Shown piece after piece: positions 7,909 to 11,640 of a stretch of DNA of 64,000 bases (within the stretch, counting starts at the first letter, position 1; the number at the start of each line of letters is the position of its first letter). The DNA lies in contig NC_091219.1 of NCBI RefSeq assembly GCF_040958095.1, forward strand, positions 25,026,202 to 25,090,201. Direction: 5' to 3'. Origin of the DNA: Procambarus clarkii (lineage: Eukaryota > Arthropoda > Malacostraca > Decapoda > Cambaridae). Position numbers and translations under genes: made by a program. The notes under the pieces were generated by a model. It saw nothing but the letters and a program-made list of their open reading frames with translations, did not search any database and was not told the DNA's origin.

Positions 7909-8279
7909 AAATAGGCCTTCTGCAGTTACCTACTTTTAATACCTGCTTCATTGTTTCGTGTTCTGTCTTGTGTTAAAAGTTTATTTTCACCTCATCCAAA
8001 ACTATTGTCACATGTCACTTCACCCAAATGTAGGTATAAAAACTCGAAAGATGTTTAAGCTCTATTCAGTTAAAGTTGTGTGTGTTTGTGTAAACTAAAG
8101 TCTTTGAAAATGTAATAAGTTTTACGAAACGCGCTGAAGTGTTGCGTCAGACTAGAAATAAAAATGAATTTTGGAGAATTGATCTTTGAATTACCATCAA
8201 CAGTGAAAAGAAACGTAAGAAAGATCGAGAAAATTCGTGTTAGAATTATTAATCTTACTTTTTCGGTTATATTTAATAA
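7909..8279 (+). mobile_element. PLE 3' region ending at a (TA)n tract
   Basis: Downstream of the PLE ORF, a noncoding tail ends ttcggttatatttaataata before (TA)n. The same tail, more diverged, recurs at 8690-8900, 10752-11149 (minus), 11198-11598 (plus) and 33328-33455 (minus). It holds the hammerhead-like motif at 8099-8153. Confidence 0.8.
8099..8153 (+). ncRNA. Hammerhead-ribozyme-like motif in PLE tail (copy 1)
   Basis: Seen: a closing helix AGTCT/AGACT (8099-8103 with 8149-8153), an internal helix GTAA/TTAC, a GAAA segment directly after it, and a helix ACGC/GCGT ending in GTC. This order of three helices around GAAA and a GUC cleavage-type triplet is the type I hammerhead layout, which is known in Penelope-like elements. 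The expected CUGANGA box is degenerate here (ttgaaaat), so catalysis is doubtful. Structural inference only. Confidence 0.45.
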
Positions 8280-8373
8280 TATATATATATATATATATAT
8301 ATATATATATATATATATATATATATATATATATATATATATATATGTGTGTGTGTGTGTGTGTGTGTGTGTA
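8279..8373. repeat. (TA)n followed by (TG)n
   Basis: Pure TA repeat to about 8347, then TG to 8372. It abuts the PLE 3' end. Confidence 0.98.
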
Positions 8374-8689
8374 TATAGGACCATGTGTGGACGATTCTTG
8401 ACACCCAGTCTGGTGATGCTGGCGCCAGAGGTACGATAACGTCTGGGTGTGCGGGTAAAGGCAATACAACAACAATTTATGTAAAATACTCCTGTGAAAA
8501 TATCAAACATCATTGGCCAGCTGTCAACTTTCTCACCTCTTGCCATATAAAGATTCAAAAATACTCTAAACGATATTTTTCAATGTCATTTTTGCATATT
8601 CCAATATTTGGGAAAGATTGTATATACATATATGTATATACTTATATTAGCATTCGCTAATATAAGCGAATACAAGCATTAACAATGTA
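8374..8689. other. Unassigned sequence
   Basis: A frame on the plus strand from 8385 is open for about 91 codons but has no recognisable motif and ends in TA-rich sequence. 8630-8675 contains short inverted phrases (tattagcattcgctaatata). Confidence 0.3.
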
Positions 8690-8900
8690 AAATTGTCTTT
8701 GAAAATGTTTAGAAGTGTCTTGCGAAACGCTTCTTGGCGTCAGACCATAAATAGAGTGTGAAAATGATCTTTGGAGAGTTACTTTTTCAACTACCCTCGA
8801 CAGGGAAGAAAAATATAAGAAATACTGAAAAGATTCGTGTTAGAATCATTGATCTTACCCTTTCGGTCATATTCAACAGTATATACGATATATATATGAC
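8690..8900 (+). mobile_element. Second, diverged PLE 3' tail
   Basis: Aligns by eye with 8094-8280 (gtctttgaaaatgt, gcgaaacgc, ggcgtcagacc, attcgtgttagaatc, tttcggtcatatt). It is clearly more diverged, so it represents another PLE subfamily or an older insertion. Confidence 0.7.
8695..8745 (+). ncRNA. Hammerhead-ribozyme-like motif (copy 2, diverged)
   Basis: The outer helix GTCT/AGAC, the GAAA segment and the ACGC/GCGT helix before GTC are retained, although intervening bases differ from copy 1. The middle helix is weak here. Confidence 0.35.
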
Positions 8901-8974
8901 AATATCCTAACTCCGCACAATACATAATATAACAGCTATATTCTGTATTCTGATAAACACCTCCAAAGAATACC

Positions 8975-9020
8975 TGAAAAGCCCCGAAATCATTTCAAGA
9001 TAACCTCAAGATAACCCCCT
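8975..9020 (+). mobile_element. SINE-A tail fragment
   Basis: Contains aagccccgaaatcatttcaa followed by gataacctcaagataacc, the SINE-A 3' end. Just beyond it, 9040-9062 carries a scrap of the FB1 core (acgtttcggtccatcctg). Confidence 0.6.
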
Positions 9021-9159
9021 ATCGTACGAGTGTGAATGGAAGTGACAACGTTTCGGTCCATCCTGCGCCCTTACGTACATAGTGACTTGTCCACGTAGAC
9101 CATTTTCGGCGCAGGAGAGCTGGATAGAGGCGCTATCCCGGGAGGATAACAGCTGGGTG

Positions 9160-9325
9160 CCTCCAGGGCGCGGCGCTATAGTGGGGTCCGAGCAGGCTTC
9201 AGGTCTGGGAGGCCTTGCCACACACACAGGCAGCGTCTGGGATGCTCTTGGACGCAGGTTCGAATCCTCGTCACGGCCCTTGGGGATTTGTTCAGAGTGT
9301 GTAGCTTTTATTAAGTACATGGCGA
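9160..9325 (+). mobile_element. SINE-D (tRNA-headed) copy
   Basis: The B-box-like caggttcgaatcc and the following tcgtcacggcccttggg are shared with copies at 15772-15862 and 18848-18912 (minus). The 3' part (agtgtgtagcttttattaag) has no match elsewhere in the window. Confidence 0.6.
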
Positions 9326-9640
9326 ACCATGGGGGTTCAGGCGCGTGTCTGGGAGGAACCAGAACGCTGGTTCTATGGTTCTATACCGCCCCGTCCTCTC
9401 TCAACCATCCCCCCTCCCTCCCCCCTCCATCCTAATCAAATCTTCCAGCATCGATTCTTTTGCCACAAAAGCCCTAATTCAGACTTGTCAATTCCCTCGT
9501 CGCCCGGCCGAATATATCCCGGCCAACTTTATTTGAATTTGCTAGACTTGGACTGCTTCATTTCTCAGCCTTTTAACAGTGTCCGGAAATTTTTTTTTTC
9601 GTCCATTATAAAAGGCTGACCAAGTCGTCTTGCTGGGACT
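9326..9640. other. Unassigned sequence
   Basis: C-rich stretch at 9395-9432 and a T run at 9590. No gene recognised. Confidence 0.3.
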
Positions 9641-9694
9641 TATATATATATATATATATATATATATATATATATATATATATATATATATATA
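9641..9694. repeat. (TA)n microsatellite
   Basis: Pure TA repeat bounding the left side of the SINE-C inverted cluster. Confidence 0.98.
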
Positions 9695-10155
9695 ACTGAA
9701 AACTCACACCCCAGAAGTGACTCGAACCCATACTCCCAGAAGCAACGCATCTGGTATGTACAAGACGCCTTAATCCACTTGACCATCACGACCGGACAAA
9801 ATGAGGTGATAGCCGAGGCTATTTGAACCACCCCACCGCCGGCACTCGGATAGTTATCTTGGGCATAGCATTTTACCAAATCACCTCATTCTTTGGGGCA
9901 ACACGTGAGGAACACAAATGCGAACAAGCCTGAATGGTCCCCAGGACATATGCAACTGAAAACTCACACCCCAGAAGTGACTCGAACCCATACTCCCAGA
10001 AGCAACGCATCTGGTATGTACAAGACGCCTTAATCCACTTGACCATCACGACCGGACAAAATGAGGTGATAGCCGAGGCTATTTGAACCACCCCACCGCC
10101 GGCACTCGGATAGTTATCTTGGGCATAGCATTTTACCAAATCACCTCATTCAAAA
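9695..10155 (-). mobile_element. SINE-C, two tandem copies on minus strand (left arm of palindrome)
   Basis: Each copy is a tRNA-like unit. On the minus strand it reads ggtcgtgatggtcaagtgga (A-box-like) and gggttcgagtcac (B-box-like), then ttctggggtgtgagttttca. Copies span about 9695-9893 and 9955-10153, joined by a 61-bp linker. They are virtually identical to each other and to the plus-strand pair that follows. Confidence 0.85.
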
Positions 10156-10170
10156 TGCTATGCTATGCCA

Positions 10171-10643
10171 ATGCTATGCCCAAGATAACTATCCGAGTGC
10201 CGGCGGTGGGGTGGTTCAAATAGCCTCGGCTATCACCTCATTTTGTCCGGTCGTGATGGTCAAGTGGATTAAGGCGTCTTGTACATACCAGATGCGTTGC
10301 TTCTGGGAGTATGGGTTCGAGTCACTTCTGGGGTGTGAGTTTTCAGTTGCATATGTCCTGGGGACCATTCAGGCTTGTTCGCATTTGTGTTCCTCACGTG
10401 TTGCCCCAAAGAATGAGGTGATTTGGTAAAATGCTATGCCCAAGATAACTATCCGAGTGCCGGCGGTGGGGTGGTTCAAATAGCCTCGGCTATCACCTCA
10501 TTTTGTCCGGTCGTGATGGTCAAGTGGATTAAGGCGACTTGTACATACCAGATGCGTTGCTTCTGGGAGTATGGGTTCGAGTCACTTCTGGGGTGTGAGT
10601 TTTCAGTTGCATATGTCCTGGGGACCATTCAGGCTTGTTCGCA
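10171..10643 (+). mobile_element. SINE-C, two tandem copies on plus strand (right arm of palindrome)
   Basis: Mirror of 9695-10155 with the same two-copy arrangement and linker. One visible substitution is gcgactt in place of gcgtctt. The axis at about 10156-10170 holds a stuttered catgctatgctatgccaatg sequence. Confidence 0.85.
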
Positions 10644-10751
10644 TATATATATATATATATATATATATATATATATATATATATATATATATATATATAT
10701 ATATATATATATATATATATATATATATTATATATATTATATATATATATA
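10644..10751. repeat. (TA)n microsatellite
   Basis: About 105 bp TA tract between the SINE-C palindrome and the PLE palindrome. Confidence 0.98.
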
Positions 10752-11149
10752 TTATTAAATATGACCGAAAAAGTAAGATTAATAATTCTAACACGAATTT
10801 TCTCAATCTTTCGTACATTACGCTTCACTGTTGGAGGTAAATCAAAAATCACTTCTCCAAAATTCATTTTTATTTCTAGTCTGACGCGACACGGGCGCGT
10901 TTCGTAAAACTTATTACATTTTCAAAGACTTCACAAATACACAACTGATTAGAACTTACGTCTCTCTGATATTATATCTACATTTGAGTGAGGTGGGAAG
11001 GGTGATGTGGCATTAACACAAGACAGAACAGGAGGGGATATTAATAGGGTATTAAAAGTATCAACACAAGACAGAACAGAAACAATGGGTATTGAATAGA
11101 AGTGTTTGTAGAAAGCCTATTGGTCCATATTTCTTGATGCTTCTATATT
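10752..11149 (-). mobile_element. PLE 3' end, left arm of an inverted repeat
   Basis: Minus-strand copy of the PLE tail: the terminus attattaaatatgaccgaaa at 10752 and the end of the PLE ORF sequence near 11150. It is almost perfectly mirrored by 11198-11598. A hammerhead-like motif lies at 10878-10930. Confidence 0.85.
10878..10930 (-). ncRNA. Hammerhead-ribozyme-like motif (copy 3)
   Basis: Same helices as copy 1 read on the minus strand: AGTCT/AGACT outer helix, GTAA/TTAC, GAAA, then ACGC/GCGT before GTC. The loop between the last helix strands differs from copy 1, while the helix-forming bases are kept. Confidence 0.42.
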
Positions 11150-11197
11150 GGAGCGGAGTCTTGAGGTGGGTAGAATATAGTTGTGTATATAGAAGCA

Positions 11198-11640
11198 ATA
11201 TAGAAGCATCAAGAAATATGGACCAATAGGCTTTCTACAAACACTTCTATTCAATACCCATTGTTTCTGTTCTGTCTTGTGTTGATACTTTTAATACCCT
11301 ATTAATATCCCCTCCTGTTCTGTCTTGTGTTAATGCCACATCACCCTTCCCACCTCACTCAAATGTAGATATAATATCAGAGAGACGTAAGTTCTAATCA
11401 GTTGTGTATTTGTGAAGTCTTTGAAAATGTAATAAGTTTTACGAAACGCGCCCGTGTCGCGTCAGACTAGAAATAAAAATGAATTTTGGAGAAGTGATTT
11501 TTGATTTACCTCCAACAGTGAAGCGTAATGTACGAAAGATTGAGAAAATTCGTGTTAGAATTATTAATCTTACTTTTTCGGTCATATTTAATAATATATG
11601 TCTACAGGAAAGACTGCTATCAAAATATACTAATATATAT
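11198..11640 (+). mobile_element. PLE 3' end, right arm, joined to a presumed PLE 5' start
   Basis: Mirror copy of 10752-11149, ending ttcggtcatatttaataata at about 11598. It is followed directly by tgtctacaggaaagactgct and (TA)n. The same junction occurs at 33456-33515. A hammerhead-like motif lies at 11416-11468. Confidence 0.8.
11416..11468 (+). ncRNA. Hammerhead-ribozyme-like motif (copy 4)
   Basis: Sequence equals copy 3 on the opposite strand, as expected for palindrome arms. Confidence 0.42.

Follow-up and report, generated by a model that had tools for sequence, protein, structure and literature searches.

A variant hammerhead motif in a Penelope-like element family of Procambarus clarkii, and genomic 5' ends that peak at its predicted cleavage site

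The window analyzed here, a 64,000-nt stretch of Procambarus clarkii DNA (assembly GCF_040958095.1, contig NC_091219.1, positions 25,026,202 to 25,090,201 of the forward strand), contains pieces of a Penelope-like element (PLE), including the 3' part of its open reading frame (ORF) and four sites at which a candidate variant hammerhead ribozyme lies just upstream of the ORF start. The relevant features, with coordinates numbered from the first letter of the window, are as follows.

6931-7908, plus strand: 3' part of the PLE ORF (the region before and including the GIY-YIG endonuclease), with one in-frame stop at 7624-7626
8099-8153, plus strand: candidate variant hammerhead, copy 1; predicted cut between 8148 and 8149
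8164-8280, plus strand: tail of copy 1, consisting of PLE ORF codons 1-39, joined to (TA)n
8694-8746, plus strand: candidate variant hammerhead, copy 2, from another subfamily; predicted cut between 8741 and 8742
8764-8880, plus strand: tail of copy 2, ORF start
10742-11604: head-to-head PLE pair (palindrome), with arms at 10742-11150 (minus) and 11196-11604 (plus) and a 45-nt spacer
10879-10929, minus strand: candidate variant hammerhead, copy 3, in the minus arm of the palindrome; predicted cut between 10883 and 10882
11416-11468, plus strand: candidate variant hammerhead, copy 4, in the plus arm of the palindrome; predicted cut between 11463 and 11464
33325-33456, minus strand: copy 5, a PLE tail without the motif, which begins at the nucleotide corresponding to A8149, immediately past the predicted cut
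33455-33520, plus strand: inverted partner of copy 5, long-tail form, joined to it via a shared CT

The coding fragment matched GIY-YIG (PF01541) with an E value of 3.9e-4 and 21.1 bits, slightly under the curated cut-off of 22.6, when the in-frame stop was read as X. The part of the ORF upstream of this domain, of which the window holds only a fragment, returned nothing convincing in Pfam and nothing in PDB; we take it to resemble a PLE-type reverse transcriptase (RT). The element was assigned to the PLEs because of the endonuclease, the structure of its tails and this presumed likeness. Searches with the protein fragment found no relatives in viral contigs, genome contigs or phages, and the family patterns found none among viral contigs.

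Each motif directly precedes the ORF start (MNFGELIFELPSTVKRNVRKIEK...), which lies 15 nt past the predicted cut in copies 1 and 4 and 22 nt past it in copy 2. In the window copies the ORF runs for about 39 codons and then meets TA-rich repeats; the tails stop at (TA)n after about 114-117 nt of ORF or, in the longer form, after about 150 nt. Of the 28 differences between copies 1 and 2 over the 117 tail positions, 17 fall at third codon positions, indicating that the tail evolved as coding sequence. The arrangement is that of a PLE, with a pseudo-long terminal repeat (pLTR) and the ORF start, an internal start of reverse transcription that leaves short or extended tails, and AT-rich targets. 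In the available portions of its description, PAc of Anolis is likewise a PLE with AT-rich targets, with a hammerhead at the pLTR-ORF junction and with reverse transcription starting 111-118 nt into the ORF, as it does here to a close approximation, or optionally 30-40 bp farther in (PMC11167929).

The segment order GTCT - TTGAAAAT - stem II - GAAACGC - loop - GCGTC - AGAC is common to the four motif sites (8100-8152, 8695-8745 and 11417-11467 on the plus strand; 10929-10879 on the minus strand), as an earlier note on this DNA had claimed for four PLE tails. The arms that hold copies 3 and 4 form a single 409-nt inverted repeat with 100% identity, and the four sites therefore amount to three independent sequences. 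As RNA, copy 1 reads AGUCU / UUGAAAA U / GUAA UAAGUU UUAC / GAA / ACGCG CUGAAGUGU UGCGU / C / AGACU. Read from the sequence, helix I is GUCU/AGAC, helix III is ACGC/GCGU plus a fifth pair and is followed by C17, and helix II begins with G-C, then U-A (or U-G), the remainder being variable. Three helices in the type I order can accordingly be drawn around the core in the window copies. Helix II of copy 2 has only 2 bp plus a possible outer part, and pairing in helix I is not clear past 5 bp.

When the motif is read position by position against the hammerhead consensus (also given in PMC3088659), G12, A13, A14, A15.1-U16.1 and C17 (the consensus having H17) are present in all window copies, and G10.1-C11.1 is retained. 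The consensus core C3 U4 G5 A6 N7 G8 A9 is absent; every window copy reads UUGAAAA+U, confirming the earlier observation that the CUGANGA box is altered throughout. U4, G5, A6 and A9 are kept, C3 has become U3 and G8 has become A8, these two still being able to pair, and one U is inserted between A9 and G10.1. Positions 3 and 8 base-pair and covary to U3-A8 in several natural hammerheads that are active in vitro; the window motif shares this swap with them, but differs in its extra U before helix II and in its PLE carrier (PMC3088659, available portions). In PAc, which has C3 and G8 where the window motif has U3 and A8 plus the extra U, C3G or G8C singly abolishes cleavage and the double change partly restores it (PMC11167929).

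A hammerhead descriptor that required positions 3 and 8 to pair and tolerated no more than one extra nucleotide, run over the 64 kb, matched the four motif sites only, compared with an average of 0.1 matches (largest, 1) in 30 order-1 Markov resamples of the window. With the canonical core CTGANGA in the same descriptor there was no match within the window. The 13-mer GTCTTTGAAAATG by itself gave five matches with up to two mismatches, not above chance (2.5 expected). Applied to a comparison set of 354 viral contig loci, mostly selected by hammerhead patterns, the descriptor returned 251 canonical cores, five that were canonical apart from an extra U between A9 and G10.1 (L168, L216, L276, L319 and L329) and one U3-A8 core. 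The pattern TTGANAAGTCC...GGACGAAA occurred at four viral loci, with helices I and III in one of them, L354. This viral contig carries a U3-A8 hammerhead in which helices I and III are complete. The U3-A8 core combined with the window's own stems gave 0 matches in viral contigs and in genome contigs. An extra core nucleotide also occurs in the plus-strand hammerhead of chrysanthemum chlorotic mottle viroid (CChMVd), where it sits between A9 and helix II of an otherwise canonical core; De la Pena and Flores reportedly described this hammerhead in 2001. The additional nucleotide is A in CChMVd and U here (PMC3705267, available portions).

Copies 1 and 2 agree at 31 of 32 core and helix positions; over the coding tail next to the motif they agree at 89 of 117 (Fisher p 0.006). 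Their sole core or helix difference replaces A with G at 11.2 and leaves the pairing with U10.2 intact. In helix III, the fifth pair is G-U in copy 1, G-C in copy 4 and U-G in copy 2. The claim that the loops have diverged holds for the stem III loop, which differs in all three independent copies, but not for the stem II loop, which the copies at 8099 and 11416 share and which differs in the copy at 8695 alone. The search for compensatory changes suggested at that time was carried out within the genome, where covariation proved slight; it carries no weight in our interpretation. For a broader view, 57 distinct instances were assembled from host loci L355-L404 and the window, many of the loci having been picked by an exact 33-mer. 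They comprise 26 motif sequences, and the block GTCTTTGAAAATGT is unchanged in 56 of the 57, which, given the selection by exact match, shows that the variant is the usual form in the family and is not a measure of constraint. The variant core is shared across subfamilies.

Conserved segments of this kind might instead represent a protein-binding structure of the PLE RNA whose likeness to a hammerhead is secondary. A protein has been suggested to bind RNA near the ORF start (PMC11167929), and the two roles could coexist; however, the conserved letters are the hammerhead core letters, and protein binding by itself predicts no 5' ends between C17 and A1.1. We regard this explanation as very unlikely.

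The host genome (4.03 Gb) contains 51,463 matches to the 33-nt core with up to three mismatches (backward control, 0) and 55,608 matches to a 35-nt tail pattern. To locate the 5' ends of copies genome-wide, we counted sites with three non-matching bases followed by exact element sequence from position k, where 0 is the first nucleotide past the predicted cut; backward-read controls were 0 for all k, and for a family this large the counts are lower bounds. At least 799 copies start at k=0, compared with at least 46 at -2, 37 at -1, 27 at +1 and 54 at +2. Over the five positions counted, the 5' ends thus form a peak one nucleotide wide and about 20-fold high at the predicted site, that is, at the phosphate 3' of C17. 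The three excluded letters vary by pattern: about half of all AT-rich flanks are missed at k=0 and k=-1, and almost none at k=-2, a bias that does not favor k=0. The k=+1 pattern excludes flanks ending in A, and A-preceded +1 ends are counted at 0. Among the matches listed (100 of 799) there were 17 upstream triplets and 69 clusters over 11 contigs, with near neighbors joined, as well as same-triplet places within 1 Mb; 51 of these clusters were not headed by TCT, the commonest triplet. The same contig span held five rows in five clusters for k=-2, and six, nine and 12 rows for k=-1, +1 and +2, respectively (hand count).

A local survey covered 20 motif-bearing host stretches of 9.9 kb together with the window, using a query that starts at -268. 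Of 44 tail matches, 32 reach the start of the query, and two begin exactly at 0: copy 5 (window position 33456) and host locus L392 (position 3245), where, 6 nt away, a short arm in the opposite orientation likewise starts at 0. The ten others begin at -196 (two), -113 (two), -49 (two), -47, -29, +21 and +49, those at -47 and -49 being divergent copies whose upstream sequence can no longer be aligned. Five opposite-strand pairs no more than 60 nt apart, with both arms beginning at the cut, were present among the 100 listed matches (C3:8896294/8896322, C3:9232105/9232133, C4:11740738/11740769, C7:46833868/46833922 and C10:17823246/17823284, the prefix denoting the host contig). The TCT triplet was considered as proof of direct joins of AGTCT to AGACT and was rejected, as no such spacing occurs among the listed matches and L392 has a 6-nt filler. 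Most copies extend past the putative ribozyme (51,463 core compared with 55,608 tail matches genome-wide, and 40 of 44 locally), suggesting that cleavage would not be obligatory and that uncut RNA also serves as template.

Two other explanations of the peak were weighed. First, it could stem mainly from one or a few amplified events, in which a derived repeat starting with AGACTAG was duplicated often. Arrays or duplicates do account for some of the 799 (at C2:37574836, six rows fall within 0.4 kb; at C7:34.1-34.7 Mb there are five), and the TCT that heads 29 of the 100 rows listed may include descendants of a single L392-like junction. The diversity of the listed matches (17 triplets; 69 clusters, 51 of them without TCT; 11 contigs) argues against such an origin, as do window copy 5 and L392, which came to light independently of these counts and whose upstream sequences differ, and we consider amplification a highly improbable source of the peak. 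Second, and the main alternative, RT could stop at the folded motif and the aborted cDNAs integrate, with no cleavage involved. The motif is conserved and able to form helices, truncated retroelement copies are common, and of about 20 distinct (TA)n-joined places among 100 rows listed, two have their ends at the base of helix I, near +4. An RT arriving at helix I from its 3' side, however, would be expected to stop near +4/+5 and not after all of AGAC, and the observed peak is one nucleotide wide, with 27-54 copies at the neighboring positions compared with 799; on this reasoning, stalling at the fold is unlikely to be the cause.

Because hundreds of copies begin exactly at the predicted cut, we consider the motif a candidate for activity. 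The best reading is that the variant hammerhead works and that, for a minority of insertions, its cut determines where the template RNA begins. We give a probability of roughly 0.8 to the proposal that the element carries, in its pLTR and 15-22 nt upstream of the ORF start, a variant type I PLE hammerhead that is self-cleaving, and that the ends at the cut site derive from the cut RNA. The anatomy and the 5'-end peak together support the view of the earlier note that this is a type I hammerhead in a PLE, in a variant form common to a family; the alternative raised there, that the motif has decayed, is disfavored by the variant core in 56 of 57 instances and by the 5' ends at the predicted cut. 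The variant ribozyme is probably active. RNA self-cleavage as the maker of these ends is what we infer from the genomic copies.

Under this proposal, read-through or tandem PLE transcripts would cut themselves after C17, yielding a 3' product that begins A1.1-GACTAG...AUG. RT, primed at AT-rich targets inside the ORF start, would copy this product to its new 5' end and run off at A1.1, and the cDNA end would be joined either with the target or with a second cDNA primed on the opposite strand. The outcome would be insertions beginning exactly at the cut, including pairs with opposed arms, while uncut RNA would also be used as template. At AT-rich DNA, the PAc protein cuts each of the two target strands and extends it, with priming on both (PMC11167929). 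We judge it somewhat better than an even bet that a doubly deviant hammerhead is the standard active form in this PLE family of tens of thousands of copies, that its cut sets the template 5' end in vivo, and that two run-off cDNAs join head to head, as at L392, explaining part of the inverted pairs.

Several results weigh against a self-cleaving hammerhead at this position. Rfam searches of the whole window at the gathering threshold, and of 7900-11700 and three 81-nt stretches at an E value of 10, gave no hammerhead match. The gathering threshold was dropped as an insensitive test, none of seven viral loci with textbook hammerheads passing it (RF00163 threshold, 34 bits). In the lax 81-nt scan, one canonical viral hammerhead was recovered as RF00163 (30.5 bits, E 2e-6), and the lax negative on the window therefore reflects a real difference. 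A model built from 27 canonical viral hammerheads without the window's stems (R2) gave copies 3 and 4 only 8.6 bits (E 7.7), which is at chance level; they ranked fifth and sixth of eight listed, and copies 1 and 2 were unlisted. Of the six R2 alignments shown, only those of copies 3 and 4 cover the whole fold. The covariance-model check proposed in the earlier note thus yielded no Rfam match and a weak unbiased score. A second model (R1), made from four sequences retrieved by a pattern of the window's own stems, placed the four window copies on top (E 0.002-0.003; next, E 1.2), and was set aside as circular and unusable as proof. Weak matches to MIR5565 and mir-1 in 7900-11700 were taken as a side effect of the palindrome, on which they are located. 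Sequence models by themselves would not establish the motif.

The predicted folding is unfavorable as well. The minimum-energy fold differs from the hammerhead in copy 1 (-11.4 compared with -6.9 kcal/mol), copy 4 (-10.4 compared with -8.6) and copy 2 (-13.2 compared with -5.0). Among 224 canonical viral hammerheads, however, the gap is at least 1.8 kcal/mol in 157, at least 4.5 in 66 and at least 8.2 in 36, so that an unfavorable energy does not exclude a hammerhead; energies of this kind would be in keeping with a ribozyme that is slow or helped by protein. Weak or absent model scores, unfavorable energies, and a core that departs from consensus by two letters and one insertion are also what a decayed ribozyme would show, that is, one whose ancestor had CUGANGA and whose present form is inactive and merely inherited. 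Against decay stand the same variant core in three independent window copies and in nearly all instances sampled, the mutual pairing still open to the changed letters, the retention of 31 of 32 core and helix positions between subfamilies that differ at 28 of 117 coding positions, and the peak of 5' ends; we consider decay extremely unlikely.

Returning to the self-cleaving hammerhead, a motif with both deviations (U3-A8 and the extra U) was absent from the non-host sequences searched. Each deviation singly has precedents and is therefore known; it is their combination that was unseen outside the host. Nearby ends that do not coincide with the cut were found in the local survey (+21, -29 and +49), and ends joined to (TA)n were about as many near +7 as at 0 (among the listed (TA)n places mentioned above, seven near +7 and five at 0 or 0/+1, one of these with both arms, the remaining places being scattered; hand count). 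The (TA)n joins were abandoned as a test of 5' ends, since near +7 the element is A-rich and has letters in common with the target, which biases the result; the flank-independent counts were used in their place. Lastly, the hammerhead of PAc, the one PLE hammerhead characterized, needed protein to cut; it was dispensable for in vitro insertion, and RNA-seq showed no ends at its cut site (PMC11167929). Here, in contrast, host genomic copies begin at the cut.

PLE hammerheads, U3-A8 cores and extra core nucleotides are each already known. Cervera and De la Pena are said to have first reported PLE hammerheads, in 2014. According to the available text of a review, hammerhead motifs are present in all available PLE sequences and usually lack helix III, whereas helix III here has 4-5 bp (PMC6155905). 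The cut in PAc lies 26 bp inside the ORF, in contrast to 15-22 nt before it in the window (PMC11167929). Retrozymes, in the portions of their description available, likewise combine a type I hammerhead with animal repeats, but they are small and non-autonomous, whereas the window motif belongs to an element with endonuclease coding sequence (PMC7229834). In the available portions of the literature, we found no report of the double variant or of PLE insertion ends at a hammerhead cut.

In the one in vitro system considered here, PLE hammerhead cleavage was dispensable for insertion and left no RNA-seq trace (PMC11167929). A family of tens of thousands of copies constitutes a natural record of template 5' ends, and the role of these ribozymes becomes testable in any PLE-rich genome. 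If our proposal is true, the PLE hammerhead gains a role in integration unseen in the published in vitro system, as far as the available text goes, and head-to-head joining of cDNAs at the ribozyme cut explains part of the inverted PLE pairs. The results also suggest that a hammerhead which is abundant and apparently working escapes searches with canonical models.

Some minor observations concern the copies themselves. In both inverted pairs of the window (10742-11604 and 33325-33520), one arm has the short tail, with about 114-117 nt of ORF, and the other the long tail, with about 150 nt, and the outer flanks differ between arms; perhaps two RT start sites were used on opposite target strands. 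At host loci L371 and L372 the motif reads GTCAGACAGACTAG, with AGAC directly repeated at the predicted cut, and these loci look as if a cut 5' end had joined an intact upstream copy. At C2:37574836-37575170, six tail starts with a spacing of about 61 nt, all at the cut position, form a small tandem array, whose origin may be a copy processed by the ribozyme. At 41762-41676 (minus strand) lies an older relict of a PLE tail, 75% identical to copy 2 across 88 nt, with no hammerhead-model match near it. Four viral loci in tRNA-gene-rich contigs (L010, L041, L051 and L105) have canonical type I hammerheads whose helix I and III letters match those of the window copies. Finally, the window contains at 9688-10614 a 445-nt inverted repeat, 99% complementary and with a unit spacing of 260 nt, which gives the impression of a tRNA-derived repeat.

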